DNA from: an uncultured Clostridia bacterium
GTDB taxonomy: Bacteria; Bacillota; Clostridia; TANB77; CAG-508
Length of the DNA: 42,889 bases
Reading direction: 5' to 3'
Assembly (NCBI GenBank): GCA_947591055.1
Contig: CANQCW010000004.1
Location: 1 to 42,889 of the forward strand
The notes under the pieces were generated by a model, which was not told the origin of the DNA, searched no databases, and was given only the letters and a program-made list of their open reading frames with translations. Below are positions 4,649 to 42,875 of this stretch, one piece after another. A program made the position numbers and the translations under genes. The number at the start of each line of letters is the position of its first letter. Positions within the stretch are counted from its first letter, which is position 1.

Positions 4649-4700
4649 ATCTTTTTTATAGTCAAATTTTAATTGTATTTTTTATACTCACAAATAACTG

Positions 4701-10081: not shown

Positions 10082-10100
10082 CTTACCTCCACAATATAGA

Positions 10101-10125
10101 AAATGGCAATCCGAAGATTGCCATC
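10101..10125 (-). terminator. Terminator between the ToxI array and the toxin (likely attenuating)
   Basis: Minus strand GATGGCAATC-TTCG-GATTGCCATTTTC just upstream of the toxin RBS. Confidence 0.75.
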
Positions 10126-10134
10126 TGTTTTCAT

Positions 10135-10242
10135 TTCCTACTTTGGCAAGGATATTCCTACTTTTTTAAGTTCCTACTTTGGCAAGGATATTCCTACTTT
10201 TTTAATTCCCTACTTTAGCAAGGGTATTCTATCTTTTTTATT
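10135..10242 (-). ncRNA. ToxI-type antitoxin RNA, three 36-nt repeats
   Basis: Units at 10135-10170, 10171-10206 and 10207-10242 (third degenerate), directly upstream of the ToxN-like gene, with promoter at 10274-10303. Confidence 0.85.
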
Positions 10243-17354: not shown

Positions 17355-18020
17355 ATGAAAAAAATTACTATTTTATCTATCGTTATCGCTTTAGTTTTAG
17401 CTTGCGCTTTCGGTATTTCTGTTAATGCCGCTGACAATGCTTCTTTTAAGGCTGGCGATACTGTTGTTGTTGAATTTGATTTAAAGGGAACTATGCAAAA
17501 TGGTGATTACAAAGTAACATACAACGACGATGTTTTAACTTTTAAAAGTATTACTCCATGCGCTGACGGTGCTGCTTATACTAAAAATGCAGGCGAAGTT
17601 GTCGCTAGTTTCTTTACACCAGCTCAAAAAGTAGTTGTTACTTTTACAGCTAAAGCTGATTCTACTGTTGAAGCAGCTAACGTTACTTTAGTTCCTAAAC
17701 TTTTCACAAATACTGAAGGTGAAGATGTAAATGTTCAAGCAGGTTCACCTGTTGTAACTGTTACACCTGCAGCTATTGAAGAAAATGTTGTTGAAAACGA
17801 AGTTATAAATGAAGTACCTGCAAATGAAGTTGAAAATGAAGTTTCAAACGAGGTTGCAAATGAAGTTTCAAACGAAGTTTCAACACCTGCTACTTCTAAC
17901 ACTGTTAATAATGATGATGACAAAACTACTTACGATCAAACTGGTGCTAACATAGCTATCGTTGCTGTTGTTGCTCTTGCTGTTGTTCTTGGTTCTGCTA
18001 TCGTTATTAAAAGAAAATAA
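17355..18020 (+). CDS. Cohesin-domain-like, membrane/wall-anchored surface protein
   Basis: Signal peptide MKKITILSIVIALVLACAFGISVNA, cohesin-like beta domain (NGDYKVTYNDDVLTFKSI...VVASFFTPAQKVVVTFTAKA), NEV-repeat linker, C-terminal DQTGA + TM + KRK. ORF-track start at 17319 is GTG; ATG at 17355 has AGGAGG. Confidence 0.7.
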   Translation: MKKITILSIVIALVLACAFGISVNAADNASFKAGDTVVVEFDLKGTMQNGDYKVTYNDDVLTFKSITPCADGAAYTKNAGEVVASFFTPAQKVVVTFTAKADSTVEAANVTLVPKLFTNTEGEDVNVQAGSPVVTVTPAAIEENVVENEVINEVPANEVENEVSNEVANEVSNEVSTPATSNTVNNDDDKTTYDQTGANIAIVAVVALAVVLGSAIVIKRK

Positions 18021-18171: not shown

Positions 18172-20115
18172 GTGAAGAAAAAGACTTTATTATTAACTAC
18201 ACTTGCTGGTTCTATGCTTATTGCTGGAATGGCAATGCCTACTACAAAGGCTGTTACTGATACTACAGCTATTGTTAATGAAGATAAAGAGATCGTTGCT
18301 GTTGAATTAGCTAACTCTGAAACTCAACTTTCTAAAGAACAATTAAAAACATTAATTGCCAAAGCTTATGAAGGCAAAAATTTAAAACCAGAAATTACTG
18401 TAGAAGGAGATGTTAAAACTGGTTCTACTGTAAAAGTTGGTGAAAACAAAACACTTACAGTTGTTGTTTACGGTGATGTTAATGGTGATGGTGCTGTTAA
18501 CTCAAAAGACGCTGTAGCTATTGCTAAACACTCAACAGGAGCAGAAACTCTTGAAGGTGCAGCTCTAATAGCTGCTGGTTTAGATAACAACACAGATAAT
18601 ATCAACTCTAAAGACGCTGTAAAAGTTGCTAAATTTTCAACAGGAGCACTTGAAGAATCTTTAGTTAAATCTGGTGTTAAAATTGAAGAAAAAATTAATC
18701 CAGAACAAGAAGTTCAGGAACACAAATGCACATACACACAAGGAGTATATGATAATATAGCAAAATCACATACATGGAAATGTACAGAATGTGGTGAATC
18801 TGGAGTAGAACCTTGTACATTTAGTGAATGGACATCAACAGATGGCAAAACTGCAAAAAGAACATGTCTATTATGTGGTGGTGTAGATACAGCAACCACA
18901 TTATCAGCTGCGTTAAGTGATGGAAGTACTAAAGAACTTACTGTAGATACAATAGATACTTCTGAAAATGAATTAACTATACCAAGAGGAACAACTGTAA
19001 CTGTAAATGAAGAAATAACAACAGCTAGTAATGATGTAACAGTAAATGGTACATTAGTTTTAAAAACAAAACAAGAAAATCTTAAATTAAAAGGTACAGG
19101 AACTGTTATCTATGCACCAGAAGTAGAAACACCAGAAGAATTTGCAGAACAATTTCCAAATGCCGAAGGTATATTAGGAGGAATACAAGCTGCAGATAAA
19201 GAAGCTGCAAAAGGCTTAAAATATGAAATAATAGTACCAAGCCTAAGTGAGGTACAAACAATAACAGAAGATACTCAAATAGAATTAGAAGCAGGATGGA
19301 ATTTAACAGTAGATTTAGGAAACAACATATTAACATCTAAAAACACAAATAATAACTTAATAAAAAATAGCGGAAATCTTACAATAAAAAATGGAACCTT
19401 GACAACTGCTGAGAAAAATAATAATCCTGTAATTAATGATCAAGGAAGTAGACTAACTTTAGAAAATGTTGATGTTAAAGGTAATAAAGGTATAAGAACA
19501 AATGGAAACTTAGGAGTTATTGGTGGAAAAATTGTATCAAAGAGTTATGATAATAATTCATATGCATTGGCAGTATTAACTGATGCAGAAACTCGTAGTA
19601 CTGCTGTGTTAAATAATGTAGATATTGTTGCACGAAACATCGGAGCATATATTGGAGGAGCTAATCATAGCTTAATTATGTACGGTGGAACGATAACCAC
19701 AAAAGGCTCAGAGAACAAAGATTATGCTTTAGCATCATACGCTACAGATGCAATTTTGAGCTTAGAAGGTACAAAAATACAATCTGACGACTTTGGTGTT
19801 TATTTACAAAATGGAGCAGAATCGGGTAAACCAGGTGATGTAGGAAACTTAGCTGAACTAAACAATGTCGAATTAACATCGGAAAAAGCAAGCATATGGG
19901 TAGCAGGTCAAAAAGATAGAGTAGAAGTTACAGGTGGTACAATAACAAGTAATGAAGAAGTAGTACTAAGAATATCTAGTAAAGACTGTGGACATAGCAT
20001 ATTAAAGGACTGTACTTTATCTGGTCACCCAACTGTGACATTTAATAGTAACATAACAGAGGAACAAAAGAATCAACTTGTTACTTTGACTGATGTAACA
20101 GAAAACAAAAAATAA
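18172..20115 (+). CDS. Secreted dockerin protein; putative expression site with a variable C-terminal module
   Basis: GGAGG RBS, GTG start, signal peptide, dockerin duplicated repeats (GDVNGDGAVNSKDAVAIAKH...NNTDNINSKDAVKVAKF), then junction NPEQEVQE and Cys-rich plus beta-helix-like C-terminus. Confidence 0.8.
   Translation: MKKKTLLLTTLAGSMLIAGMAMPTTKAVTDTTAIVNEDKEIVAVELANSETQLSKEQLKTLIAKAYEGKNLKPEITVEGDVKTGSTVKVGENKTLTVVVYGDVNGDGAVNSKDAVAIAKHSTGAETLEGAALIAAGLDNNTDNINSKDAVKVAKFSTGALEESLVKSGVKIEEKINPEQEVQEHKCTYTQGVYDNIAKSHTWKCTECGESGVEPCTFSEWTSTDGKTAKRTCLLCGGVDTATTLSAALSDGSTKELTVDTIDTSENELTIPRGTTVTVNEEITTASNDVTVNGTLVLKTKQENLKLKGTGTVIYAPEVETPEEFAEQFPNAEGILGGIQAADKEAAKGLKYEIIVPSLSEVQTITEDTQIELEAGWNLTVDLGNNILTSKNTNNNLIKNSGNLTIKNGTLTTAEKNNNPVINDQGSRLTLENVDVKGNKGIRTNGNLGVIGGKIVSKSYDNNSYALAVLTDAETRSTAVLNNVDIVARNIGAYIGGANHSLIMYGGTITTKGSENKDYALASYATDAILSLEGTKIQSDDFGVYLQNGAESGKPGDVGNLAELNNVELTSEKASIWVAGQKDRVEVTGGTITSNEEVVLRISSKDCGHSILKDCTLSGHPTVTFNSNITEEQKNQLVTLTDVTENKK
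18702..18719 (+). other. Cassette junction (core GAACAAGAAGTTC) in the expressed gene
   Basis: agaacaagaagttcagga; in-frame E-Q-E-V. Confidence 0.7.
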
Positions 20116-20176
20116 AAATTAATAATAAGTATTAGTGAACTTAATTGGATAATTAAAATTTATTCATTAAGAAAAC

Positions 20177-20209
20177 AAAAATATCGTACAAAAACTGTAC
20201 GATATTTTT
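20177..20209. terminator. Bidirectional terminator between convergent cassettes
   Basis: AAAAATATCGTAC...GTACGATATTTTT. Confidence 0.8.
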
Positions 20210-20247
20210 GTATTTGATAACTTTTTAATAAACTATATAATCAAATT

Positions 20248-23200
20248 TTATTTGCTTATATCTTCAACTTTTATTGTTAGGTAATTTATCTCATTTGTTT
20301 CTTTATTTTTGAATCCAATTGTCATCTCTGGTAATTCAGCTTCCCACCAAATTAAAATTTCTGTATCTTTTAAATCAAGTGATGAACTTGCAGTTACATC
20401 ATCCTCTGTAACTTGGTAGCCAGAAACAGGACCATCTGTATAAAGTTTGTCTCTTGAAATTCCTGTATCAACAATTAAAGCAAAATATGTTCTATCATTT
20501 TTAGAAGCATTATCTTCTGAAGTATATGCTTTAGTTTTAGTCTTATCAATTTTTACCGTTATAGTGTTTGTTTTTGGATCTACTTCTACAGAATTTATAG
20601 CATCCATATTTTTAGCAAATTCAGTATTATGATCGTCTTCTTTCATTATTTCTTTATTAAGTGCTTCTTTCACTTCGCTAGTTTCTTCAACGCTTAATGT
20701 TTCAGATTTTTGATTTAAAGTAACAATTGATTTTTTATTTAGAGTAAACTCAATTTCGTCTGAGTTAGTTTTAACACTATAAGAAGCTTCATTAGCTACA
20801 GAAGGTACTAGATAATATCCAAACCAATCAAGAAGTTTTGGAGTACTTGTTAATTTTTCACCAACAACAGTATTTCCTGTATAAGTTTTGTCAGTTATCA
20901 AAGTAACAGTATATTTATCACTCATACTTGTGTCACCAACTACAAGGCTTTTGAATACTGCTTTAGATATATCAACTTTACCAGATTTTACTTCTAAGCC
21001 AGTAATTTCTTGAGCATTAGTAAATACTCTTACAGCATTAGATTTATTAGCTGAGATTTCTAATCCATCTTGATTTGTTCCAACAAATTCAACATCAATT
21101 TGTTTTTCAACTTTAGATGAATCAATTGATAATTTATTGTTAGAACCAGTAAATGTAAATTTATCACCTTCTACTATAAATGGATTTATTTTTGATTCTT
21201 GTTTTATTTTCACTCCATTGATAGTAGTTGTTGTTCCAGTAGTAACTTCTACATTAACTGGGCTTGATGTATCTAAAGTTAAATCCATATTATCTTTACT
21301 GATGATTACTTTTTCAACTGATAATTCAGATAAATCAAATTTTTTTGCAGTATCTACTGTAATTTCGTTTAATTCACCAGTTACAGTTGTTGTATAATTA
21401 GCTTCACCAGTTATATTGACTTTTGCAGTTTTTGCAACTTTTGTTAAATCATATGTTGTATCTTTCTTATCATCATCTGTTAATGTTAAAGCTGTTATTT
21501 TATCATTTACTGATATTTTGTCATTATTGTCCATTTGATCTAAAACACTTATTATATTTAATACTTCTGGATAAATATCAGAAGAATATTCAGTCATTTT
21601 TTCACCTACATATAATGTGTTATCTTTATATGTAACTTGATTTGCCCCAAGTTTTGGTAAAACTGGAGAATCTTTTTCCACTTTTACATATGTGGCATTA
21701 GTAAATGCAAGTGCTGAAATTGGTGTTGTAACTTTAGCTTCATTAGAATAATATTTTGAACCATTAACTTCAGTTACAATCATAAATTTATATTCTTTTC
21801 CTGGATTTAAATTTTCTGCTACATTATATGGTAATGATGTAATTGCAGTACTATCCTCCACATAATCTTTATCTGATTCCACATAGTATAATTTATAATT
21901 TACTAAACTTGCTCTATTTTTACTTAAAATATCAAATAAATTATTAGAATCTAATAAAGTTCCTTTTAATTGTACTTTTCCATCTTCAAGTACTGCTCTT
22001 AAATCTTCAATTCTTGCTCCTTGATAATATTTCAAATTAGCTTGTTTGTCGCTACTACCACTAGCTTTCTTTATTTCATCTGAAGATTTATTTGCCATTA
22101 AAACGTCATCTTTAGCATTTGCAGTTACTTTAAATGAATATGTTCCTGCACCATATTTTTCTACTATAGATGATATATCAAAATTTGAAGTTTCAGTAGT
22201 TGTTGCTGATGATACAACATTATTATATTCTTTGTTTGTCTTAGTTGAATCATATTTTAAAATTTCAACTGTATAATCTTTTACTTTTGCTACATCTCCT
22301 GTAGGTGTCCATGATATTTTCTTTTCATTTTTGTCTAAAGTAATTGTTATTCCAGTAAGTACTGGTGATGTTGTTATTGTAACGCCTGTAGAAGAAACAT
22401 CAGTATAATCTTCGTTATCTGCAACTGCTATAACTGTCATATTGAAAGTTCCAGCATCTTGTTCCTTTAATATATCAAAGAAATCAACTTCTTTAGTTTC
22501 TCCTTTATTTACAACTGTTTCATAAACTATTTTATTAGTACTGTCTTTTAATATAACTCTATATTCAACAAATCCTTCAGTTTCTTCATTAAAATCCCAT
22601 TTATATGTAGCTTCTTTACTTGTCTCTTTTTCTACAGTTACTTTGCCTTCCATTGCATTAGCACCTTTTTTAGCAACCTTAATAGCTACAACATCTTTAG
22701 AATCTGTTCCAGAAGCAGTTTTTGCTGCTAAATATACAACACAAGCATCGTCACCTATATCAGTTGGAATAGGAATACTTGTAGTTTCATTAAAACTATT
22801 AATTTTGCTTGTATTACTTGCTGAATTACCAATTATATCAGCAACAGTTGGAGCAGGTTCTCCTACTTTCTTAACTAAGTAATATACTGTATCATTAGTA
22901 TTGGTTGATTTTAAATTTGTAATACTAGCTTGTGGCTTTTTCTTCTTATCAGCAGTACGATTAGCTTTTTCATATGTTACAACTGGAGCGTTTGCATATT
23001 TAGTTGCCGCTGTACCATTAGCTACTGTTGAAACATTACCTTCACTATCTCTTACTAATGCTTTAAGAGTTAATGTTCCTTCTTCTAATGAGCTTAAATC
23101 ACCACTAATTGTTTCATTAATATTTTTTGTTGTTAATTCTTTTGTCAAAGTTAAAGTATTTGGTTCGTCAGCAGAATCTGTAATATTAACTTCAAGAATT

Positions 23201-23592
23201 ACTGGAAGAATATTTGTATTTCCACCATTGAAAGTTACATCCATATTAACATTTTTAACATTTGAGGAATTAATTTCATTATCATTATTTCCAGATCCAG
23301 CTACAACTTTAAGTGAAGTAGGAGCAACTAATTTTTTAAATACAAAAGTTTTAGATTCTTCAAAAGAATTACTTTCATCAGTTATAAGTAATACATTTTC
23401 TTTATTTTCTTTTAGCTGTGAAATGCCATTAATTTTATAAATATTTTTATTAGATGAATCTTGAGTACCATCTACTAGAATATCATTTAATTTAAATCTA
23501 ATATCTTGTACTTCTTTATTTAATTTTACTGAGATATTTCCGCTAGCTTCAACTTCAAAAGAAACAATTTCAACATCTAGAACTTCTTGGTC
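20248..23592 (-). CDS. Silent cassette 1: large surface protein module without RBS/signal peptide (Ig/FnIII-like plus beta-helix-like)
   Basis: Opens at GACCAAGAAGTT (23581-23592): DQEVLDVEIVSFEVEASGN...; no SD before the nominal ATG; ends INYLTIKVEDISK*. Confidence 0.7.
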   Translation of the reverse strand, partial: DQEVLDVEIVSFEVEASGNISVKLNKEVQDIRFKLNDILVDGTQDSSNKNIYKINGISQLKENKENVLLITDESNSFEESKTFVFKKLVAPTSLKVVAGSGNNDNEINSSNVKNVNMDVTFNGGNTNILPVILEVNITDSADEPNTLTLTKELTTKNINETISGDLSSLEEGTLTLKALVRDSEGNVSTVANGTAATKYANAPVVTYEKANRTADKKKKPQASITNLKSTNTNDTVYYLVKKVGEPAPTVADIIGNSASNTSKINSFNETTSIPIPTDIGDDACVVYLAAKTASGTDSKDVVAIKVAKKGANAMEGKVTVEKETSKEATYKWDFNEETEGFVEYRVILKDSTNKIVYETVVNKGETKEVDFFDILKEQDAGTFNMTVIAVADNEDYTDVSSTGVTITTSPVLTGITITLDKNEKKISWTPTGDVAKVKDYTVEILKYDSTKTNKEYNNVVSSATTTETSNFDISSIVEKYGAGTYSFKVTANAKDDVLMANKSSDEIKKASGSSDKQANLKYYQGARIEDLRAVLEDGKVQLKGTLLDSNNLFDILSKNRASLVNYKLYYVESDKDYVEDSTAITSLPYNVAENLNPGKEYKFMIVTEVNGSKYYSNEAKVTTPISALAFTNATYVKVEKDSPVLPKLGANQVTYKDNTLYVGEKMTEYSSDIYPEVLNIISVLDQMDNNDKISVNDKITALTLTDDDKKDTTYDLTKVAKTAKVNITGEANYTTTVTGELNEITVDTAKKFDLSELSVEKVIISKDNMDLTLDTSSPVNVEVTTGTTTTINGVKIKQESKINPFIVEGDKFTFTGSNNKLSIDSSKVEKQIDVEFVGTNQDGLEISANKSNAVRVFTNAQEITGLEVKSGKVDISKAVFKSLVVGDTSMSDKYTVTLITDKTYTGNTVVGEKLTSTPKLLDWFGYYLVPSVANEASYSVKTNSDEIEFTLNKKSIVTLNQKSETLSVEETSEVKEALNKEIMKEDDHNTEFAKNMDAINSVEVDPKTNTITVKIDKTKTKAYTSEDNASKNDRTYFALIVDTGISRDKLYTDGPVSGYQVTEDDVTASSSLDLKDTEILIWWEAELPEMTIGFKNKETNEINYLTIKVEDISK

Positions 23593-23625
23593 TAGCAAAA
23601 ACGTTGAAAGCATTGAAAATACTGA
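23593..23625 (-). repeat. Iteron-like leader next to the cassette 1 junction
   Basis: Plus strand gTTGAAAgcaTTGAAAataCTGAAA: 9-bp period. Confidence 0.55.
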
Positions 23626-23791: not shown

Positions 23792-25127
23792 TTATTTTTC
23801 CTTTAAATATCTTTTTAAAAGGAAAGTTAAAAAATATGGGAAAGTATAAAATTTGCCATTAAAACCTATATTTTTATATCCTAGCTTTATTCCATACTTA
23901 ATATCTTTATACATTTTATTGTCTATTAAATTATTTAGAGAAATAGTCGCACCATCAATCGCTTTTACTTCAACTGGAATCAAAGAATCTTTATCTCTAA
24001 TAAAAAAGTCCATTTCAATAGTACCCTTTTCATTTTTATAGAAATATAAGTTATAGCCCTCTTTTACAAGAGTATCTGCAACAATATTTTCATAAATGGC
24101 ACCTTTATAAGTATTAAAATTTTTATTATTTCTTAAATCATCTTGTGCTTCTTCATCTAGTGAACCAATTAATAAACCTGTATCACTAAAATATATTCTA
24201 TAATTATTAGGATTAAAATTTCCTCCAAGAGGAAGTTCTGGTTGTTCTAAACAGTAACAAATATTAATAATTCCACTATCTTTCAGCCAATCTATTGTTC
24301 CAATATATTCTCTGCTTCTTGCACCATGTTCTATCTTTGAAATTTGAAACTTTTTGTTTTCATTTCCTAAAAATACAGGAATTCTACGATACACATTAAG
24401 GACTTTAGCATGATCCAAGCCGACCAGCGTACTTAGTTATATCCTCTTCATAATCAAGAAGAATTTGCTTTTGCATTTTTAATGTTCCACTATAATTTTT
24501 ATTTTTTACAAATGAATTAACAATTGCAGGCATTCCACCTATTACCATATATTCTTTAAAATTATCAAACATAACAGAAAGCTCTACATCAGAAAAAGGA
24601 ATTAAGTTTTTCATATGATTATATAGATTTTCTATTTGCTCTTCTTTATATCCTTTAGCCCAAAGAAATTCTTCAAAGTCCATTGAATACATTTCATAGT
24701 CTTCTTTATTTCCAACGCTATTAGATTCAATTTCTTTATAGTTAATTCCCATAAGAGAACCTGAACAGATTACATCATATCTTCCATCTTGATTAAATGA
24801 TTTAAGAGATGTTGCACAATTAATACAATTTTGTAACTCGTCAAAAAATATTAATGTATTTCCTGGTATAAATTCAAAATTTGGATTTTTTAAAGAGATA
24901 TTTTTAATTATAGTATCTACATCAAAACCATCATCAAAAATATCCCTATATTGCTTTTGCAGTACAAAGTTTATTTCAATTACACTTTTATAATTATTTT
25001 TTGCAAAATATCTAATTGATTCTGTTTTTCCTATTTGACGTGCTCCTTTTACTATCAAAGGCTTTTTCTGTTGACTATTTTTCCATTCTATTAAATAATT
25101 ATCAATTTTTCTTTTTAAAAGTTCCAC
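23792..25127 (-). pseudogene. AAA ATPase with DUF4143 C-terminus, disrupted by a frameshift (two ORFs 24405-25127 and 23792-24418)
   Basis: GARQIGKTESIRYFAK Walker A, LIFFDELQN, ...KYAGRLGSC / DHAKVLNVYRRIPVFL; removing one base restores KYAGGLDHAKV. Confidence 0.8.
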
Positions 25128-25262
25128 AATTTTTCACCATCCTATATATATATTATATCACAAAATTCCTGCTATATGCAATACATTTTTTCACAAAATT
25201 CCATTTCTATATATGTTTTTCACTTTTTGCAATTTACTGCCAAAAGTATTGTTTTATATTGC

Positions 25263-25302
25263 AAACTTCTTTTAAAAAAACACTGAAAGTATTGAAAATA
25301 CT
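25263..25302 (-). repeat. Degenerate copy of the junction/leader element
   Basis: Minus strand agtattttcaatactttcagtgtttttttaaaagaagtt resembles cassette leaders. Confidence 0.4.
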
Positions 25303-25414
25303 AGATAATGCGTGATAAATATATTAATTTTTATAAAAAAATAATTAAATAAATAGCACATTTTTGCTTTTTATATTATAATTAAATTATATTTAAAATC
25401 ATGGAGGTAGTGTT

Positions 25415-25777
25415 ATGCCTAGTAAACTAAAAAAAATTTTAGATGAATATACTGAAGGTTTATCTAATATTCTAGACAATAAAATAGAAAAAGTAATTTT
25501 ATATGGTTCTTATGCTCGAGGAGAGCAAAGTTCTAAAGAAGAAATTAGCGATATTGATATAATGATACTAGTAAAGTCTAATTCTAGTGAGATTAAAGAT
25601 ATAGAAAAAATAGTATTAGATTATAGTTATAATCTAGATTTAAAATATAATATTGTATTATCTCCTATGGTAGAAAATATTGATGTTTTTAATAAAAGAA
25701 CTAAATATATGTCTTTTTATAAAAATGTAATGAATGAGGGAGTTATATTATCTAAAGGAATATGTAAAGGAAAGTGA
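25415..25777 (+). CDS. MNT-type nucleotidyltransferase domain protein
   Basis: VILYGSYARGEQSSKEEISDIDIMILV motif; GGAGG RBS. Confidence 0.85.
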   Translation: MPSKLKKILDEYTEGLSNILDNKIEKVILYGSYARGEQSSKEEISDIDIMILVKSNSSEIKDIEKIVLDYSYNLDLKYNIVLSPMVENIDVFNKRTKYMSFYKNVMNEGVILSKGICKGK

Positions 25778-25872
25778 TTATCTGTATTTGTAATAGGACA
25801 AACAATTGATAAATTTGTTTTTTCATTAAATATATTATTGCTTATTACAACAGCTAATCTATAACTTCTTGG
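25750..25872 (-). pseudogene. mazF middle fragment fused to an orphan cassette junction
   Basis: Minus reading PRSYRLAVVISNNIFNEKTNLSIVCPITNTDNHFPLHIPLD resembles the MazF core; no N- or C-terminus here. Confidence 0.65.
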
Positions 25873-25908
25873 TCTAGCAAAAACGTTGAAAACCTTGAAA
25901 ATAGTGAA
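25863..25908 (-). repeat. Orphan cassette junction plus iteron leader, no cassette ORF
   Basis: Minus cactattttcaaggttttcaacgtttttgctagaccaagaagtt, nearly identical to the cassette 1 leader. Confidence 0.75.
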
Positions 25909-26036: not shown

Positions 26037-26303
26037 ATGGCTCAAACAAATATTAATATAAGAATGGATGAAGATTTAAAAAAACAATTTGATAAATTTT
26101 GCTCTGATATAGGTATGACAATGACAACAGCTATTTGTGTATTTGCAAAAAAAGCTGTTAGAGAACAAAAAATACCTTTTGAGATTACAGCTGAAGACCC
26201 TTTTTATAGTTCTGCCAATATGAAAAGGTTACAAAAAGCAATTCAAGATGTAGAAGATGGAAAACTTACAGTTCATGATTTAATAGAGGTAGAAGATGAA
26301 TAA
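26037..26303 (+). CDS. RelB/DinJ family antitoxin
   Basis: MAQTNINIRMDEDLKKQFDKFCSDIGMTMTTAICVFAKKAVREQKIPFEI. Confidence 0.9.
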   Translation: MAQTNINIRMDEDLKKQFDKFCSDIGMTMTTAICVFAKKAVREQKIPFEITAEDPFYSSANMKRLQKAIQDVEDGKLTVHDLIEVEDE

Positions 26304-26559
26304 AGCATGGCAAGATGAAGCGTGGGAAGATTATTTGTATTGGCAGACTCAAGATAAAAAAATACTAAAAAAAATAAACCAGTTATTAAAAGATATAGAT
26401 AGAAATGCTTATGATGGAATAGGAAAGCCAGAAGCATTATCTGGAAATCTTTCTGGATACTGGAGTAGAAAAATTGATGATAAAAATAGAATTGTATATA
26501 AAGTACAAAATAATCAAATTATAATTATTCAATGTGGTTCACATTATAGAGATAAATAA
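26296..26559 (+). CDS. YoeB/Txe family mRNA interferase toxin
   Basis: AWEDYLYWQTQDKKILKKINQLLKDI...GIGKPEALSGNLSGYWSRKIDDKNRIVYKV. Confidence 0.92.
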   Translation: MNKAWQDEAWEDYLYWQTQDKKILKKINQLLKDIDRNAYDGIGKPEALSGNLSGYWSRKIDDKNRIVYKVQNNQIIIIQCGSHYRDK

Positions 26560-26651
26560 AATTGTAATTGCTAATCATATAATAATACTAAAAATATAAT
26601 AATAAATATTGACATTTATACTATGTATATACAATGAGAGGAGTTATTTAT

Positions 26652-26891
26652 ATGACTACTACTATTCAAAAATGGGGAAAAAGCCAAGGTGTTAGAATTC
26701 CTAAAAATATATTAGATTCTGTTAATTGGACAGAATCGGAACAGATTACAATTGTAGTTGAAAATGGTAAAATAATTATGGAAAAAACAAAATTAAAAAG
26801 AAAAAATATAAAAGAATTATTTGAAAATTATGATGGAAAATATGAACCAGTAAAAATAGATTGGGGAAATCCGAAAGGGAAAGAAATATGA
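26652..26891 (+). CDS. MazE-type AbrB-fold antitoxin
   Basis: MTTTIQKWGKSQGVRIPKNILDSVNW...FENYDGKYEPVKIDWGNPKGKEI. Confidence 0.85.
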   Translation: MTTTIQKWGKSQGVRIPKNILDSVNWTESEQITIVVENGKIIMEKTKLKRKNIKELFENYDGKYEPVKIDWGNPKGKEI

Positions 26892-27116: not shown

Positions 27117-27458
27117 TTATATATTTATAACAACTCCCTCTTTTTGAACATTAGTATAAAATGGTACAATATTAACTCTTGCATTATACTTATCAATATT
27201 TTTAATTAGTGGAGATATTTCAATTTCAAAATTATTTTCACTTTCAATATCATAAGCTATATCATATATTTTATCTTTATATTGTTCTAATTCTTTTTCA
27301 TTCAAATCAGTTAAAATCATTATATCAATATCAGATGATTTATTAAAATCTCCTCGTGCATATGAACCGTATAATATTATTTTTCTTAATCTATCTCCTA
27401 ATATAACTTTTACTTTGTAAATAAAATTTTGAATAATATTTTGTATTTCTATAGGCAT
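27117..27458 (-). CDS. MNT-type nucleotidyltransferase domain protein
   Basis: IILYGSYARGDFNKSSDIDIMILTD. Confidence 0.85.
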   Translation of the reverse strand: MPIEIQNIIQNFIYKVKVILGDRLRKIILYGSYARGDFNKSSDIDIMILTDLNEKELEQYKDKIYDIAYDIESENNFEIEISPLIKNIDKYNARVNIVPFYTNVQKEGVVINI

Positions 27459-27605: not shown

Positions 27606-27670
27606 TAGATCTTTTATGATATATTTATTGAAATCATCCAGTGTTTTCAATACTTTCAACAATTTTTCTA

Positions 27671-30670
27671 GACCAAGAAGTTCCAGCGTTAGAAAAAGCC
27701 ATAGAAGATGCTTTAAAACAACTTGAAAAATATGATAACTTTATGAATTGTGATGATAATAAAGGTAGTTACGGAACAGAGATCGGATATTTAGAAACTG
27801 CTCAAGAAGATATAGAAAATGCAGAAACAGAAGAAGATGTAGCAGAAGCTCTTGATACCTTCTTATCTCAAATGGAAAAAGTAGATGAAGCAATTGCAGC
27901 ATTAGAAGAGAAAAAAGATGCAGCAATTGAAGATTTACAAGCTTATGCAGATGCATTAAATGATGTAAAAGGAATGAGCGCAGAAGACAAATCAAAAGTT
28001 AAAACTTTTGTAAAACAAGCTCAAGAAGCAGTAAAAGCCGCAAACTCTAACGAAGAAATAGAGGCAGCTACAGATACTTTTAATGAATTAATGGCAAGTT
28101 TTGAAGAAGTAAAAACTGCTAAAGAAAAGGCTGAAACACTTGCAGCATTAAATGATTATTTAGCAGAAGCAGAACCAGGAATGAAAAACGTTATAGAAAA
28201 AGCAATTGATGAAGTAAATAAAGCAACAACTGCTGAAGAAGTAAAAAATGCAGTTAACGGTCTTTTAGATGAAAAAACAGGAAAATTACCAACTCTAAAA
28301 GAAGCACAAAAAGCAGCATATGAAACACTATCAGCATATGAAGATTATTTAGCAAAAAATACAGTGGACGGAGAAAATTTAATTCTTGGAGAAATAGAAA
28401 CTGTAAAAGCAGCAATAGCTAATGCAGAAGATAAGTCTAATGTAGAAACAGCTATGGATGGATTTGATAATTTTATGGATGATTATGAAGACACAGTTAC
28501 TGCTGTTGAATTAGAAGTAGCAAAGAATGCATTAGACAATATGTATAAAGAAGTTACAGCAAAACTAAGTCCTTATGTATCAAGCACAGATAAAAATGTT
28601 AAAGATTTAGCAGATGCTGCAGTAAAATTATTTGATGAAATTAGAAAAGCCGGAGCCGAATCTGAAGAAAAAGATGATGTGGTGGAAGCAACTAATAGAA
28701 TAAAAGATTTATTCTATGGTAAAGGAAATCATGGATTACCAGCAGTAAATGAAGATAACTATGTTGTAGAATCAAATCTTAAAAGTTATTATAGTGAATC
28801 TAATATAGTAACTAACTTCTTAGGATATGAAAATGCATTAAAACACAATGCAGCAAAAACTGAAAAAGATGATAAAGCAGATAAATTAGGACGTGCAGAA
28901 GCATATAAATCAGCAATGGAAAAATTAGACTTATATACAACAGTAATAAATGACAATGATGCAGTTGAAGCATTAAAGTTAACAGAACAAAATGTAGCAA
29001 GTATCAAAGAAATGATAAGTTCAACAAAAACATCAGTAGAAAAAGCAGAAGGCAAAACTGCTGTAGATGATGCCAAAGCTATATTAGATAAATATTTAAA
29101 CAACTATTATGCAGAATTTGTAGAATATGCAGAAAACTATGAATTCGAAAGTACAAAAACAAGTGCTTTAAAAGAATTAGAAGCTTACAAAGAGCAATAT
29201 AAAGATGTTACTGAAGATGATACAATTTATGCACCAGTGAAAGATGCAGTAGATGATGCAATTACAGCTATTGAAGCATTAGAAGCTGACATAAATGAAG
29301 TTAGTGAAATAACAGAAGAATTAGAAACTGTAAAAGATGCAATTAAATTAGCAAACAAACAAGCAGAATTAAAATTAGCAGTAGATACAGCAGTAGCAAA
29401 ATATACACCACTATTAAAATCTGAAAGTGAAGAAGTAAAACAAGCAGCTGCAGCAGCAATAAAAGAACTTAGTGCTTTAAAATATAATGGATCAATTAAA
29501 AACACACCAAAAGACGTAGCTAAAATAGAAGAAAAATATGATCCTCAACTTAAAGAAGCACTAAAAGCTCAAGAAGAAAAAGATAAAAAAGAACGTGATG
29601 AAGCATTAGAACCAATAATGGATAAAGTTGACGAACTTATTGAAATAGCAACAGCAGGAAAGAGAACAGAAATAGTAAATCAATTAAATAATTTTAAATC
29701 AGAACTTAATAAAACAAAAACAGCTGAAGAAGTAAGAACAGTAAGTGGCCAATTAAATTCTTATATAAATGATTCATGTCAAATAGTAAGTGCTCAATAT
29801 GATGCGATATATAAAACATCAGTTGGATTATTAGACAAGTATAAAGAAATCTGTGGAAAAGATGAAGAAGCAAAAGCAATAGTAGACAAAGCAATAGCAG
29901 ATATCAAAGCAATAACAGAAACAGATATTGCAAGAGCACAAGCAGCAATTAATGCAATAGTTGGTGTAGGTGTATCTGACGAAAAAGAAACAGTTGCAAA
30001 GAAAATTGCTAAAATACAAGGTGAAATAACTAACTTAGACACTGAAAAAGAGAACGCTGTAAGAACTATTAATAATAAAATTGATGAATATCCAGAAGAT
30101 AAAGCAGCATTAAAGAATATAGTACAAGAATATATAGATGCAATAAATGCTGTAACAAGAAAAGGCAAAAATTATGAAACTACAATAAACAATATAGTAA
30201 CAGAAGCTGAAGCTGCAATACAAGATTATCTTGATGTTAAAATTTCTAATGAAGCAGAAAAAAATCTTAATATAAAAAGTGTTAAAAATGAAATAGGAGA
30301 ATCAACTACTTTTTTTGAATCTGGAAAAAAGGTTTCAGATTTACAAGAAAGTGTTAAAATAGTAGATGGAAAAGTTTCAGGAAAATTAAAAGAAGTAACC
30401 GATTTTACACAGTTTGGTGCTCCTGAAGGAGAAAACCATTTCTTAGCTTTAAAATTTGATAAAGGTTCTGCAGAAAGAGTTGAAATTCAATTAGTTAATG
30501 GTGATGAATCTAAGACTATCGGAGATTTAGATACTGACGGAATTGTAATAATAAGTTTTAAAGAAGAACAACAACTAACCACTAACAAAATGAAAGTAAA
30601 TTTTTATAATGAATCAAATGAATTAGTTAAAACTTTAACACTTGACTTATCAGGATTAAAGTTTGCTTAA
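27671..30670 (+). CDS. Silent cassette 2: alpha-helical/coiled-coil repeat surface module without RBS/signal peptide
   Basis: Opens at GACCAAGAAGTTC: DQEVPALEKAIEDALKQLEKYD...; long helical Ala/Glu/Lys-rich repeats. Confidence 0.7.
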   Translation, partial: DQEVPALEKAIEDALKQLEKYDNFMNCDDNKGSYGTEIGYLETAQEDIENAETEEDVAEALDTFLSQMEKVDEAIAALEEKKDAAIEDLQAYADALNDVKGMSAEDKSKVKTFVKQAQEAVKAANSNEEIEAATDTFNELMASFEEVKTAKEKAETLAALNDYLAEAEPGMKNVIEKAIDEVNKATTAEEVKNAVNGLLDEKTGKLPTLKEAQKAAYETLSAYEDYLAKNTVDGENLILGEIETVKAAIANAEDKSNVETAMDGFDNFMDDYEDTVTAVELEVAKNALDNMYKEVTAKLSPYVSSTDKNVKDLADAAVKLFDEIRKAGAESEEKDDVVEATNRIKDLFYGKGNHGLPAVNEDNYVVESNLKSYYSESNIVTNFLGYENALKHNAAKTEKDDKADKLGRAEAYKSAMEKLDLYTTVINDNDAVEALKLTEQNVASIKEMISSTKTSVEKAEGKTAVDDAKAILDKYLNNYYAEFVEYAENYEFESTKTSALKELEAYKEQYKDVTEDDTIYAPVKDAVDDAITAIEALEADINEVSEITEELETVKDAIKLANKQAELKLAVDTAVAKYTPLLKSESEEVKQAAAAAIKELSALKYNGSIKNTPKDVAKIEEKYDPQLKEALKAQEEKDKKERDEALEPIMDKVDELIEIATAGKRTEIVNQLNNFKSELNKTKTAEEVRTVSGQLNSYINDSCQIVSAQYDAIYKTSVGLLDKYKEICGKDEEAKAIVDKAIADIKAITETDIARAQAAINAIVGVGVSDEKETVAKKIAKIQGEITNLDTEKENAVRTINNKIDEYPEDKAALKNIVQEYIDAINAVTRKGKNYETTINNIVTEAEAAIQDYLDVKISNEAEKNLNIKSVKNEIGESTTFFESGKKVSDLQESVKIVDGKVSGKLKEVTDFTQFGAPEGENHFLALKFDKGSAERVEIQLVNGDESKTIGDLDTDGIVIISFKEEQQLTTNKMKVNFYNESNELVKTLTLDLSGLKFA

Positions 30671-30690: not shown

Positions 30691-30726
30691 AAAAAATACA
30701 CGAGGTATAATACTCGTGTATTTTTT
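30691..30726. terminator. Bidirectional terminator between convergent cassettes 2 and 3
   Basis: AAAAAATACACGAG...CTCGTGTATTTTTT. Confidence 0.85.
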
Positions 30727-30742: not shown

Positions 30743-33700
30743 CTATTTTAATCCTTGAATCTCTACTGATTCAGTTCCTTCATTTTCAATAGTTACTATA
30801 TTATTTACTCCATTTAATGTAACTTTTACATCTTCACTATCTACTCCAAAAGATGCTAAGAAGCTGTTTACTTCTGATAGAACTGTTTCTGTAATATCTG
30901 CTCCTACTGCAGTGTTTTTAGTTAATGCAGTTTTTAAATCTTCAACTGATTCATATTGTTTAATTGCTACTGTTTTTCCTTTTAAAACACTTGGAACGTT
31001 TTCTTCTACTACTGCTGTTATTTTTGCTGTTTTACCATCTTTTTTGCCTGATAATGTTACAGCTTTTCCACCTGTTAATTTATCTCCAGATACATCAACT
31101 TCTCCTTTTACTACTGTAACTTCTATATCACTTCCTACTGTTACATTTTCTTGAGTTACTGTTACTTTTCCACCATTTCCTTTTATTGTTATGCTTCCTT
31201 GTTGTGTTGTAGCTGTTCCGTCTGAACTTACAAATTTGATTGTTACATTTCCGTCATTTTGTCCTGCATCAACACTATTATTTAAGTTTTCAAATACTAA
31301 GTTGTTTGATTCTTCTCCATTTGCAACTACTGTTAATGTTGGATTATTACCTTCTATTATAGCTTTTACTGCTGTTTGTAATTTAGTTGTCATTTTAACA
31401 CCATTAATTGTTACTGTTGCTCCTTCTGCTACTATAAAGTTTCCTAATTCAGTAGCTCCTGTTTTTATTTTTACTCCATTACCTAATGTTACTACTTCGT
31501 CTTTATTCATTTTGAAATTACTTAAATCAAATTGCCCTGCTTTTAGATTTACTTCTGCTGGATATTTTTCTGATCCAGAACCGCCTATAGGTTTTCCAAT
31601 TTTTCTTTCATAATCGCTACCAGTAATGTTTAGTGTTTTTCCTTCTAAGTAATTAGCATACATAAATGATGCATCTTCTTCAGAATTTGCCTTATCTTTA
31701 TTTAATTCTAAATCTATTACATCACCATTTATTGTAACTTTATCACCATTTTTTAATTTTGAAAGGAAAGCTTTTAAGTTAGTAAATTCTCCTTTTAAAT
31801 TTGTATCACTAAAATCGTTTCCTTTGAATTCTTCTCCTTCAATTACAATTTTTCCATCACTTCCTACTGAATAAAAGTTATTTGCATTTGCTTTGCAATC
31901 TTCTTTAGTTTCAGTGCAAGTTAAGCCATTTACTCTTGGCATTGTGTGACCATTTGCAATTACATCGCTCCATCCTTCAAATTCTCCACATCTTGTAATT
32001 AGTCTAAATTGATATTCTGTATATGCTTCTAATCCGCTTACTGTGAAATATGTTGCTGTTATATTTCCATCTTCATCTTTATCATAAGTTGTTACTACTT
32101 CTGATGTTCCCATATCTTTGTAGTTAGTCTCATCAACTTTTTTATAAACTCTTACAGCATATGTTAAATCTGAATCTTCTTCTCCGTATGCGCATTTATT
32201 TGCATAGTATGGAGCTTTTTTATTTGTTGCTGTATCTAATTTAAATGTCATTGTACTATCTGAAGCGTCTGTTATTTTCGCATCTCTATATGGTGCACAG
32301 AAATAGTAATATTCTGGTTGTGAATTTACATAGATTATATTCTTATTAGTATTGTTCTTATCTTCTTCTTTCATTTTTTCACTATCTGCAGTTGCAACTA
32401 CTTCTGCATAATATCCATAGTTACGATTTAATTTTCTAGTTTTTGTCCAGTTTTCACCTACATAATTATCATTATCTGTAGCATAATAAATTGATTTATT
32501 ATTTGATTTAGTTGTTGTAGATGTTATTCTAGCATTTGGATCAAATACACCAGTTTCTGTGTCTTCTAAGTATAATTTTACTGTGTATCCTCCACAGTTT
32601 ACATCATTTTCATCCCATGATAGTTTTGGATATCCATTACTTTCATCTACAGATAATTTTATATTACTTACTGGATTTACAGCTTTTACTGTTACTGTTT
32701 CTGATTTAAATTCATCAGAATTTATTGTATTTGTTGCTTCACTTGCTATATTTCCTTTAGTTACTACTGTTATATAGTATTCTCCTGCTTCTAAAGCAGA
32801 TGTTGGATCATTGTAATTTCTTAATGTAAATTTTGTACTTCCTGCTTCTGTTTCATAATAAATTTCTCCATCTTTATATAATGTTACAATATATCCATTG
32901 TTTAAATAAGTACTTGTATGAGGATTGTTCCAAGTAAAATCTCCGTTTTCACTTGTAGGTAATGTTACACTACTAATTTTTTCTTCTTTAGTTGCCTTTA
33001 CATCATCTGCCATATCTACTTGTGGTATACTTACTGCACAATCAGCTAATACAGTTTGACTTCCATATGAATTTTCTACTATGTAGAATATTCTATATAA
33101 ATTATCGTTATTTAATCCGTCAATTACTTCATCAATTGAATCTCCATTGACTGTTATTTTTCTTGTTACTGGAGTATAACTACTGCTATTCTTTATGTTT
33201 GAGTTTGAAAACTCTTTTGTTTTTGCATCCCATTTTACTGCATCAGTAGCACTTAATTCTGTTTTTAAAGCATTATCTGGAACAGCACAATAATAAATTG
33301 TTGTTACATCACTTTCACCATATCTTGTTGCATTAAAAATAGCATTGTCTGTATTACTACGTTTTACACTAACTTTTGCAACTGTTGGCTCTACAGTATT
33401 TTTAGTTACTTTTACTTCTCCTAATGGTGTTTCATACTTTGTATCTTCTGCATCAAATAATCTAAAATATATTGTTCCATCTGATATATGTGGATATCCT
33501 CCAACTAAATCTTGATGATTTTTTTCATCTTTTGTTACATCAATTTTTGATTGGCTTGCGCCTACTGTAACTTTCATTTCATTTTCATCACTACTTGTTT
33601 CAGGTGTTACTGTTGCAGGTAAACCACTTATACTTAGTTTTCTTCCACTTTCATCAAATGCTACTAATTGAAGAGAAGTATCATCAGGGATATCTTCGTC

Positions 33701-33799
33701 ATAAGAAACAGAGATGTCTAAATTCTCTTGATTTACGTTGTTAATGATATTGTTTTCATTTACTGTTATTGTGTAATTGTAATCCTGAACTTCTTGGTC
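30743..33799 (-). CDS. Silent cassette 3: Ig/FnIII-like plus beta-helix-like surface module
   Basis: Frame open from GACCAAGAAGTTC at 33787-33799: DQEVQDYNYTITVNENNIINNVNQENLDISV...; no start/RBS. Confidence 0.75.
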   Translation of the reverse strand, partial: DQEVQDYNYTITVNENNIINNVNQENLDISVSYDEDIPDDTSLQLVAFDESGRKLSISGLPATVTPETSSDENEMKVTVGASQSKIDVTKDEKNHQDLVGGYPHISDGTIYFRLFDAEDTKYETPLGEVKVTKNTVEPTVAKVSVKRSNTDNAIFNATRYGESDVTTIYYCAVPDNALKTELSATDAVKWDAKTKEFSNSNIKNSSSYTPVTRKITVNGDSIDEVIDGLNNDNLYRIFYIVENSYGSQTVLADCAVSIPQVDMADDVKATKEEKISSVTLPTSENGDFTWNNPHTSTYLNNGYIVTLYKDGEIYYETEAGSTKFTLRNYNDPTSALEAGEYYITVVTKGNIASEATNTINSDEFKSETVTVKAVNPVSNIKLSVDESNGYPKLSWDENDVNCGGYTVKLYLEDTETGVFDPNARITSTTTKSNNKSIYYATDNDNYVGENWTKTRKLNRNYGYYAEVVATADSEKMKEEDKNNTNKNIIYVNSQPEYYYFCAPYRDAKITDASDSTMTFKLDTATNKKAPYYANKCAYGEEDSDLTYAVRVYKKVDETNYKDMGTSEVVTTYDKDEDGNITATYFTVSGLEAYTEYQFRLITRCGEFEGWSDVIANGHTMPRVNGLTCTETKEDCKANANNFYSVGSDGKIVIEGEEFKGNDFSDTNLKGEFTNLKAFLSKLKNGDKVTINGDVIDLELNKDKANSEEDASFMYANYLEGKTLNITGSDYERKIGKPIGGSGSEKYPAEVNLKAGQFDLSNFKMNKDEVVTLGNGVKIKTGATELGNFIVAEGATVTINGVKMTTKLQTAVKAIIEGNNPTLTVVANGEESNNLVFENLNNSVDAGQNDGNVTIKFVSSDGTATTQQGSITIKGNGGKVTVTQENVTVGSDIEVTVVKGEVDVSGDKLTGGKAVTLSGKKDGKTAKITAVVEENVPSVLKGKTVAIKQYESVEDLKTALTKNTAVGADITETVLSEVNSFLASFGVDSEDVKVTLNGVNNIVTIENEGTESVEIQGLK

Positions 33800-33981
33800 T
33801 CATTTAAAAAAACAAAATGTCAATTTTTATTAATATATCAACAAAAGTTAACAATTATTTGAAAGATATTATTAAAAAATAGTAGGAATAATATAAGAAA
33901 TATTGTATATAATATATAAATATATTATCTTGACAATATATTTACAAAATGATAAAATAATAATGAAGAGAGGTGATATTT

Positions 33982-34245
33982 ATGGCTCAAACTTTAATTA
34001 ACTTTAGAATTGATGAAAATATAAAAAAAGAAATGGAACAACTTTGCAATGAGTTAGGTATAACAATGACAACAGCCTTCAATATTTTTGCTAAAAAAAT
34101 GATACGTGAAAAAAGAATTCCCTTTGATGTGTCTATTGATTCATTTTATTTAGAAAATAATATAAAATACTTAGAGCAAGTAATAGCTGATATCGAATCT
34201 GGAAAATCAAAATTAGAAGAGCACAAATTAATTGAGGAGGATTAA
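33982..34245 (+). CDS. RelB/DinJ family antitoxin (second locus)
   Basis: MAQTLINFRIDENIKKEMEQLCNELGITMTTAFNIFAKKMIREKRIPFDV; AGAGGTG RBS. Confidence 0.9.
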   Translation: MAQTLINFRIDENIKKEMEQLCNELGITMTTAFNIFAKKMIREKRIPFDVSIDSFYLENNIKYLEQVIADIESGKSKLEEHKLIEED

Positions 34246-34246
34246 T

Positions 34247-34504
34247 ATGAAGCTATTATGGGAAGAAAGAGCATGGGAAGATTATTTATATTGGCAACAA
34301 CAAGACAAAAAAACATTAAAAAAAATCAATATACTTTTAAAAGATATCCAGCGAGATTGTTATAGTGGAATAGGAAAACCGGAACCTCTAAGAGAAAACC
34401 TAAAAGGTTGGTGGAGCAGAAGAATAGACAATGAAAATAGAATTGTCTACTGCCAAAAAGGAGAAAATGTAATTATTGCTGCATGTAGAGGTCATTATGA
34501 ATAA
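34247..34504 (+). CDS. YoeB/Txe family toxin (second locus)
   Basis: AWEDYLYWQQQDKKTLKKINILLKDIQRDCYSGIGKPEPLRENLKGWWSRRIDNENRIVY; GGAGG RBS. Confidence 0.92.
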   Translation: MKLLWEERAWEDYLYWQQQDKKTLKKINILLKDIQRDCYSGIGKPEPLRENLKGWWSRRIDNENRIVYCQKGENVIIAACRGHYE

Positions 34505-34729: not shown

Positions 34730-35656
34730 TTAATCACTTTTTAATTTCCAATTTATCATAGGATGAAATTTTATTTTTTCTATAATTTCATTATCATCAA
34801 ATAATAATTCTGGTTCATATATTCCTTTGTGAAATTTATCATAAAATTCTTGAATATTATCATCAATTATTAAAATATCTTTTAAATAGTCTCTTACTGC
34901 TTGTTTCATTTCATCTACATTACTTTTTTTGGGATTTCTATCTTTTAATGTTGGTAGTAATTTTGTTTTTATTTCTTGTTTGTCTATTTTTTCTATTTTA
35001 TCAAGACTCATATCTTCAAATTTATAGTTATTAATGGCTATATATTCTAACATAAAACATTGCTTTAATAATTTTTTTTCTTCTTTATCAAATAACTGAT
35101 ATTTACTTAATGTATACACATCAAATAGATCCCTTGCTGTAGTTCTGCTTAATAATGCACAAATTTTTGCAGCATAAATTTCTATGGGATGAATACAATT
35201 AATTGCTAATTGTTTGTCTTCAAATACATCTGTAGATATTTTTAATTTTTTAGTTTTTAAAATATGTACTCTATTCATATAATTTATTTCTATCTTTATG
35301 TTGTCTATATTACCTGTTATATCTTCATATTCTGCTACAATAGAATCTAACGCATACACATTTTTAGATTTTTCTGTATTAATTCTATATGAATTAGCAG
35401 TTAAATACTGAACTAATAGATTATGTATATCTTTTCGATTTTTTATCATTTCATCTTTTGATAAATTTTCAGCCAAATCTAAGTCAATATCAACTGATAA
35501 TCTTGGAAAGTTAAATACTGCTGTATTTATAGCTGTTCCACCTTTTAAAGCTAATATGTTTTTTAACTTCTTATCATTATTAATCCATTCTAAAATTCTA
35601 AGCAATCTTTCTACTTTTTCTAATGTCGATTTTATAAAACCTGTTTTTTTTTGCAA
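34730..35656 (-). CDS. AbiEii-type nucleotidyltransferase toxin (type IV TA / Abi)
   Basis: LALKGGTAINTAVFNFPRLSVDIDLDLAENLSKDEM...; adjacent to AbiEi-like gene. Confidence 0.88.
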   Translation of the reverse strand: MQKKTGFIKSTLEKVERLLRILEWINNDKKLKNILALKGGTAINTAVFNFPRLSVDIDLDLAENLSKDEMIKNRKDIHNLLVQYLTANSYRINTEKSKNVYALDSIVAEYEDITGNIDNIKIEINYMNRVHILKTKKLKISTDVFEDKQLAINCIHPIEIYAAKICALLSRTTARDLFDVYTLSKYQLFDKEEKKLLKQCFMLEYIAINNYKFEDMSLDKIEKIDKQEIKTKLLPTLKDRNPKKSNVDEMKQAVRDYLKDILIIDDNIQEFYDKFHKGIYEPELLFDDNEIIEKIKFHPMINWKLKSD

Positions 35657-35683
35657 TGTCTTCTATGTATTTTTTATATTCTC

Positions 35684-36436
35684 CTACCAATACAATGTCC
35701 TCCCTTTAGTTAAAAATATCTCTGGAACTATCAAGTTCCATTCTTTAACATATTTGCTTTTCATTTTTTTTGTTTCTTCATTAAAATATAACTTCTTTTC
35801 ACCTTTTTTTTCTCTACATTTTTCTATTATTGTATTATTTACACCATAATGTTCATTTAATAATTCAATAAAAAAACCAACTTTTAAATATAGTTTATTA
35901 GAATTGTATCCTTTTAAATATTCTAATATTTTATCTCCATCTAGTTGCCCAAATAATTCTAAACACATTATTAATTCTTCACTACCTCCTGCTAAATCTG
36001 TTCTATTTATGCAATCAATAAAAGTTCTTTCTTTATCAGTTAATCTTACTTTGTTCTTTTCTGTTATTCCAAAATCATATTTACTATCTATACATTTATA
36101 TGATATTCCTTCGAAGTCAAAATCTTTAAATCTTTTTTTAGTCGAGACATAAACTTGGTAAAATACTTGATTTTTTACTCCATAATATTCTAATGCAGAA
36201 TGATATGATATATATGCATCATCTTTTATTTTTGATCCTATCATATATTGATCTGCAATTGTATTTTTAAATTCAATATCACATACAACATATAAATTAT
36301 GTTTTACTCTTTTTATAAGATTAAAGTCTAATAGGTCGTTTATTAAGCCTCTAGCTGAATTTATATTTCCTGTTAATTTATATACATCTTCAGAATTAAA
36401 GACTTTTAAATTTAAAATTTTTTCATATCTTATCAT
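35684..36436 (-). CDS. AbiEi-type antitoxin/transcriptional regulator
   Basis: N-terminal winged-helix-like region, ...DAYISYHSALEYYGVKNQVFYQVYVSTKKR..., typical AbiEi pattern. Confidence 0.82.
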   Translation of the reverse strand: MIRYEKILNLKVFNSEDVYKLTGNINSARGLINDLLDFNLIKRVKHNLYVVCDIEFKNTIADQYMIGSKIKDDAYISYHSALEYYGVKNQVFYQVYVSTKKRFKDFDFEGISYKCIDSKYDFGITEKNKVRLTDKERTFIDCINRTDLAGGSEELIMCLELFGQLDGDKILEYLKGYNSNKLYLKVGFFIELLNEHYGVNNTIIEKCREKKGEKKLYFNEETKKMKSKYVKEWNLIVPEIFLTKGRTLYW

Positions 36437-36774
36437 ATTATTTCACACCTTCTTTGAAAATATAGTTTATCTTTAATAAATTTTAACATGTCTATTTTAT
36501 ATTGTCAATATTTTTTCACGCTTTTTGCTCTAATATTATGTTTTTTTGTAAATTATTAGTGCAAAATTCGTGACTTGCTATAAATAGTTAGTGTCGCTAT
36601 ACACATAAAATTTTAGCGTTTTGATGAAAATTTAACAAAATATAAATTAATATACAATTTCATATTCTTAATATTTTAATAAACTTAATATACATTATTT
36701 ATAAAAAAAATTTGTCAAATCCATTAATATCAAGAAAAATATGAATTAATATTGGAATAAATTACTAAGAATCA

Positions 36775-39753: not shown

Positions 39754-39876
39754 ATTTATATTTATACAATTAATAAATTAAAATATAATAAATAATAGCT
39801 TAACACTTGTAATCAAGTATTAAGCTATATTTTTTAACTAAACCTTTAATCTAGGTATTGACATACTGTCTAAATA

Positions 39877-42702: not shown

Positions 42703-42875
42703 TCAACAAATCGATAAATTTATTGATTTTACATAGGTTTCCTGTATTTTATAAAAAATTATATAGAGCAGCTAAAAAAACTATTTGATTGCAAATTTTG
42801 TAAAAAAATTAGAAAAATTTGCATTGAGTTGCATTTTTTTATAAAATAGTATATAATAATAATGGAGGCGATAAT

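Follow-up and report, generated by a model that had tools for sequence, protein, structure and literature searches.

The known systems that exchange parts of proteins, or sets of genes, by rearrangement differ in what is exchanged and in how the exchangeable parts are arranged. In phase-variable hsdS, inverted repeats lie within coding sequence and bound convergent partial genes, whose domains are exchanged in frame. Cellulosome-type cohesin-dockerin systems diversify through many dockerin genes, and chromosomal superintegrons carry cassette arrays with interspersed toxin-antitoxin genes that are thought to be stabilising. In the pilV shufflon of R64 (IncI1), with Rci, there are seven sfx sites, each segment carries two partial ORFs, and no conserved stretch of the 31-nt sfx exceeds 13 nt (PMC11852207, PMC5430464). 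Shufflons also defeat assembly (PMC5430464). The vpma/Xer1 shuffling of lipoproteins in Mycoplasma agalactiae is cited as a shufflon as well, and there a promoter is reported to be moved to whole genes (PMC11868660).

The window analysed here is the entire contig C4 (42,889 bp) of a 1.25-Mb, 69% complete MAG, and the locus that it contains works like a shufflon in its architecture. A constant 5' part and five alternative 3' modules correspond in frame at a short repeat, and inverted repeats bound convergent partial ORFs in the order + - - + - + -, which gives three pairs. We consider it probable that inversion in this array swaps the C-terminal module of one secreted dockerin protein. The locus resembles R64 in its constant N-terminal gene, exchangeable C-terminal partial ORFs, convergent pairs, seven repeats with 13 conserved bases and three segments in the window, and the related genome G130 is likewise hard to assemble. 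It differs from R64 in its chromosomal location in a gut Clostridia, in modules of about 1,000 aa as against short pilus tips, in segments that stand 3-4 kb apart with toxin-antitoxin (TA) and defence genes in the intervals, and in its unrelated core (AGAMCAAGAAGTTC), which is unlike the published sfx (GTGCCAATCCGGT...); no adjacent rci-like gene was found.

As in vpma, a surface protein family would be switched by site-specific inversions, but in the window the crossover would lie inside coding sequence, after the dockerin; the relative G185, with its cores upstream of the cohesin, is closer to vpma in this respect. The hsdS genes differ in exchanging restriction-enzyme specificity subunits instead of surface modules. 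With the cellulosome the locus has in common a dockerin protein adjacent to a cohesin-like protein that is presumably anchored. Unlike those of superintegrons, the cassettes of the window are paired in inverted orientation and fused to a constant gene; no integrase gene was seen in the window, and short in-frame cores in alternating orientation are found rather than attC sites. None of the papers searched pairs "shufflon" with "dockerin", or dockerin with phase variation and inversion.

Expressed gene, core repeat and silent modules

The coordinates of the locus are given in Table 1. The expressed gene contains a Dockerin_1 domain (PF00404; E 4e-5, 24.1 bits vs the Pfam cut-off of 22.9), and has a current module of 470 aa after the core; a Shine-Dalgarno-linked start (AAGGAGGAATAA before GTG) is found in this frame alone. 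The neighbouring cohesin-like protein of the window has no hit in Pfam. Of its seven aligned homologues, one matches the PF00963 cohesin family (1.5e-6); a profile of the seven matches solved cohesins, with a best E of 8e-5, and the top Foldseek hits of an AF2 model are mostly cohesins, at an E of 2e-3, both falling short of strict thresholds. From these weak profile and fold matches the protein is likely to be a cohesin, and it is presumed to be the surface anchor for the dockerin. In relatives, a sortase gene (PF04203) lies upstream of the cohesin.

Table 1. Positions in the window of the dockerin and cohesin-like genes, core copies, silent cassettes, hairpins and interval genes
Feature	Position	Strand	Remarks
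Cohesin-like protein	17355..18020	+	signal peptide, beta-sandwich domain, NEV-rich linker, DQTG plus TM tail
Expressed gene	18172..20115	+	signal peptide, X-like domain, type I dockerin, current C-terminal module
Core 1, expression site (NPEQEVQ)	18702..18719	+	AGAACAAGAAGTTCAGGA, at dockerin-module junction
Bidirectional terminator hairpin, expressed module / cassette 1	20175..20211 (about)	.	16-17-bp, T-runs on both strands
Silent cassette 1	20248..23592	-	1,114 codons from core; whole frame 20248-23613
Core 2, cassette 1	23576..23593	-	AGACCAAGAAGTTCTAGA
Interval 1: AAA_14/DUF4143 defence-type gene (PDC-S01)	23792..25127	-	split into two frames
Interval 1: nucleotidyltransferase (MNT-like)	25415..25777	+	
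Core 3, orphan	25858..25875	-	frame closes after 6 codons
Interval 1: RelB/YoeB toxin-antitoxin pair	26037..26559	+	
Interval 1: MazE antitoxin-like gene	26634..26891	+	
Interval 1: second nucleotidyltransferase	27117..27458	-	
Core 4, cassette 2	27670..27687	+	
Silent cassette 2	27671..30670	+	999 codons; BLASTP: no homology to other modules
Terminator hairpin, cassettes 2 / 3	30691..30726	.	
Silent cassette 3	30743..33799	-	1,018 codons; fn3-like
Core 5, cassette 3	33783..33800	-	
Interval 2: RelB/YoeB toxin-antitoxin pair	33973..34504	+	
Interval 2: AbiEi/AbiEii	34730..36436	-	type IV TA, phage defence
Core 6, cassette 4	36774..36791	+	
Silent cassette 4	36775..39702	+	975 codons; homologous to cassettes 3 and 5
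Hairpin, cassettes 4 / 5	39795..39828	.	
Silent cassette 5	39877..42702	-	941 codons; fn3
Core 7, cassette 5	42686..42703	-	contig end 186 bp beyond

The 13-bp core AGAMCAAGAAGTT occurs in seven exact copies, all of them in the window contig: one at the expression site, five heading intact silent modules, and one orphan. When one mismatch is allowed there are 8 copies vs 0.30 expected (at most 2 in any of 100 shuffles), and elsewhere in the MAG no copy was found with one mismatch or fewer to the 18-bp pattern. The first base of the core is a constant A, while the preceding codon varies (L, L, L, stop, S, stop or P). A further copy of leader plus core, degenerate and probably a dead site, is present at 25254-25309 on the minus strand. 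A search of 31 genomes of the same genus for a common core gave hits outside the window at or below the rate of a reversed-pattern control, so that the core appears to be lineage-specific; 14 hits in viral contigs each fell in an unrelated protein or frame.

Cassettes 1 and 2 and the orphan have about 35 bp of leader in common at their cores. Repeats of this kind, together with the longer ones of relatives (66 bp in G004, leaders of about 62 bp in G185) and the failure to find a recombinase nearby, might be expected if the cassette ends were exchanged by RecA-dependent homologous recombination or gene conversion with no dedicated recombinase, as in the variation of pilins or of the C. fetus S-layer. 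The expression core and the silent cores of the window, however, have only 13-18 bp in common, which is below the usual length of a RecA substrate, and the cassettes are mostly unalike beyond the core; we regard this explanation as improbable.

Read in the frame of the expression core, all five silent copies are open, with no stop, for the lengths listed in Table 1. Modules 3, 4 and 5 are homologous (26-29% identity) and module 1 is weakly so, while module 2 and the expressed module match no other module. Since such unlike modules flank conserved core DNA, the core is better read as a joint between them than as a relic of gene duplication. An in-frame stop immediately precedes cores 5 and 7, and another lies two codons before core 6; it follows that what cassettes 3, 4 and 5 have in common there is DNA and not an upstream protein. 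A Shine-Dalgarno-linked start is absent from the six silent copies in the window and from seven in G130, and the cassettes are without signal peptides. These features bear on the notion that nothing is rearranged and that the modules belong to separate surface-protein genes in which a linker motif (E/D-Q-E-V) is conserved. The motif is indeed coding in every copy and cassettes 3, 4 and 5 are true homologues, yet genes of this kind would not be expected to lack start signals and signal peptides, to have stops immediately before the motif, to conserve the base in front of it regardless of the amino acid, or to alternate in orientation in a way that recurs in other genera, and we give the idea hardly any credence.

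Searches of PDB sequences with two of the modules gave no hits. Many modules of the window and of G130 end in a similar hydrophobic tail (..I/L-x-GLK), perhaps a C-terminal signal that they share.

Predicted inversions and the genes between the pairs

Each of the three tail-to-tail pairs has one hairpin between its members, and that of the first pair has an MFE of -19.3 kcal/mol (z -7.4). An earlier note on this DNA had described the first pair as lying tail-to-tail around a bidirectional terminator, which agrees with the frames at 18172-20115 (+) and 20248-23613 (-) and the hairpin between them, and had placed inverted cores at its outer ends. The cores are there (18702-18719 and 23576-23593), and the outer end is to be moved from 23592 to 23593. 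The note had also predicted that inversion would put cassette 1 in frame after the dockerin (...NPEQEV joined to LDVEIV...). When core 1 was recombined with core 2 in silico (18709-23586, 4,878 bp), the product was indeed one open frame of 1,291 aa, reading ...KINPEQEVLDVEIVSF....

Corresponding fusions of the dockerin with cassettes 3 and 5 are 1,195 and 1,118 aa long, and inversion with the orphan leaves a 183-aa dockerin that is empty of any module. A one-step inversion from the expression core reaches cassette 1, 3, 5 or the orphan, and cassettes 2 and 4 take two steps. The segment of the earlier note thus has two counterparts among the convergent pairs of the window, and the two states that the note foresaw are a subset of those open to a multi-state array: the module-swapping inversion that it proposed agrees with the anatomy of the locus and with the relatives, while the restriction to two states does not hold for seven cores, five silent modules and one orphan. 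The narrower reading would have only 18702-23593 invert, between the current module and cassette 1, and would make the other cassettes unrelated paralogues. It is true that inverted cores bound this segment, that the fusion is open and that this inversion is the shortest; but four more intact modules are headed by exact cores, as is one orphan, and contig ends in G130 join at least two cassettes to one dockerin, so that we think this reading very improbable.

The intervals between the pairs are occupied by toxin-antitoxin and defence genes (Table 1), the first of them by a split AAA_14/DUF4143 gene, two nucleotidyltransferase genes, RelB/YoeB and MazE. Between the two RelB/YoeB pairs there is 71-73% identity, and each stands about as far from a minus core (25858 and 33783) as the other, so that the orphan has probably lost its cassette. 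Deletions between direct cores would each cost a toxin-antitoxin pair, the sole exception being that from cassette 1 to the orphan, and the loss of such a pair on deletion may guard the array from collapse, as has been proposed for superintegrons.

Three other features of the window can be recorded here. The stretch 9590-10232 holds a ToxN/AbiQ-like type III toxin with a 36-nt tandem repeat array (10125-10232) adjoining it, a similar 36-nt array occupies the left contig edge (1-134), and an AT-rich tandem array with a 13-bp unit in at least 18 copies lies between two genes at 4354-4704.

Related loci and the search for a recombinase

G130, from another genus of the same family, follows the same plan of alternating orientation with a core of its own (AGGAAGAACCTGACG, at least nine copies). 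Seven of its silent modules can be read, over 919-1,176 codons, and AAA_14, HEPN/MNT and HigBA genes lie between modules. The contig that carries its dockerin, C28, breaks off 26 bp beyond the domain, and the junction recurs on C38, C39 and C40 in alternating orientation. The overlap of C40 and C39 is exactly 77 bp, which is also the commonest end overlap in G228; the contigs accordingly have the appearance of paths through a k=77 graph. C28 closes with a 77-mer of about 52 bp of dockerin sequence followed by the core and GTATTAGATAC, after which some cassettes continue with A and another with G, and it is at this first point of difference that the single-copy C28 stops. C40 and C39 have one silent leader in common and diverge where the cassettes read GTATTAG or GTATTAA, and the cassette contig C38 begins at the first base common to dockerin and leader. 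Breaks of this kind are expected if a flank joins more than one cassette and a cassette more than one flank, implying, as judged from the assemblies, that junctions might be mixed in the sampled G130 population. The evidence from contig breaks is indirect and is drawn from relatives, in which the cassettes are alike beyond the core as well. Among about 32 dockerin homologues, three (in G031, G228 and G130) lie on dockerin contigs that end 8-26 bp past the dockerin, where a rough expectation is about 0.06; no silent cassettes were seen in the contigs read for G031 and G228.

In G004, of the same genus as the window, a dockerin gene is convergent with a second module, and the contig ends at the corresponding junction, where the dockerin tail is repeated perfectly over 66 bp in inverted orientation. 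G185 has three convergent pairs of whole cohesin-dockerin operons, with a leader (about 62 bp, exact in four) common to five of the six cohesin starts in alternating orientation and a sortase-like gene before the first cohesin only; L012 is similar. The six-gene array of G185 was rejected as an instance of the same junction, since its dockerin tails differ and the common sequence is the 5' leader before the cohesin. In G185:C4 (40000-79999; L195-L196), leader arms TTGCACAA...TTGTGCAA surround a 9-10-bp centre before the cohesin starts and may be a recombinase site, which would place the crossover of G185 there. The tandem copies of G005 were rejected as an inverted array because their repeats are direct. 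They consist of a duplication at 5,470-bp spacing (L104, G005:C40, 482-10771) of an upstream gene together with those for cohesin and dockerin; the copies are almost identical in their 5' parts, differ in their C-terminal modules, and represent another route of diversification.

Searches of the window with hmmsearch and phmmer, up to the contig end 186 bp past core 7, gave no match to a tyrosine or serine recombinase, and no contig was found that overlaps the window past 42889. The recombinases of the MAG (Pfam Phage_integrase and Resolvase) comprise two of Xer type, one integrase at a contig edge, one truncated Xer-like and one large serine enzyme, none of them linked to the array. Nor did a Phage_integrase search of the genus and of G130, G031, G228 and G185, or an HMM scan of dockerin loci, turn up a recombinase for the array, and the dockerin loci of relatives have no consistent extra enzyme. 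The only tyrosine recombinase near a dockerin, a XerD-like enzyme in G228, was set aside on account of its housekeeping context. Large serine recombinases were seen within about 4-10 kb of dockerin loci at L212, L203 and L211 (G186, G092 and G189). The truncated Xer-like gene of the window genome (L004, G000:C33) has a full-length homologue (L185) in G004:C49 and is a candidate for a lost recombinase, unlinked to the arrays.

The window contig crosses all seven cores unbroken, with no sign of mixed orientations in the assembly, which means that one configuration was dominant in the sample or that the system is slow or dead. A locked array, shuffled once and then fixed in its present module when the recombinase was lost from the lineage, would account for the unbroken contig, the orphan core and the truncation of L004. 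If the array were long dead, however, five silent modules would not be expected to remain intact over about 1,000 codons each, and because the MAG is 69% complete the absence of a recombinase is weak evidence; we judge a fossil array unlikely. Inversion that swaps modules is well supported by the anatomy of the locus (frame, orientation, terminators and a single ribosome-binding site) together with the relatives, and inversion in the strain of the window is predicted from these features.

Proposed mechanism and implications

We propose that a single promoter and start codon serve to express a secreted protein in which an X-like domain and dockerin would form the fixed N-terminal part and the C-terminal module would be exchangeable. 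The short core at the dockerin-module junction would be matched by the inverted copies at the heads of silent modules, and site-specific recombination between the expression core and one of these would flip the intervening DNA, fusing a new module in frame behind the dockerin and leaving the former module without a promoter. The dockerin presumably docks on the adjacent anchored cohesin, such that the surface tip would change and the anchor remain constant. The five silent cassettes thus appear to be spare tips of one surface protein, plugged in behind a fixed docking domain.

The balance seems to us to tilt slightly toward a class of surface shufflons that recurs on the chromosomes of one family of uncultured gut Clostridia. 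These would be built on cohesin-dockerin display (sortase-linked in relatives), and the toxin-antitoxin and phage-defence genes that separate the invertible pairs would preserve them. Their crossover would have moved among genera, lying behind the dockerin in G004, G130 and the window and ahead of a whole cohesin-dockerin operon in G185.

If this is true, two fields that have so far been separate, cohesin-dockerin display and shufflons, would be joined, and there would be a hint as to why toxin-antitoxin genes sit amid invertible cassettes. Uncultured gut Clostridia would re-tip a surface display protein by DNA inversion with the anchor untouched, and each inversion would alter the targets that are bound or determine which phages can use the cells.
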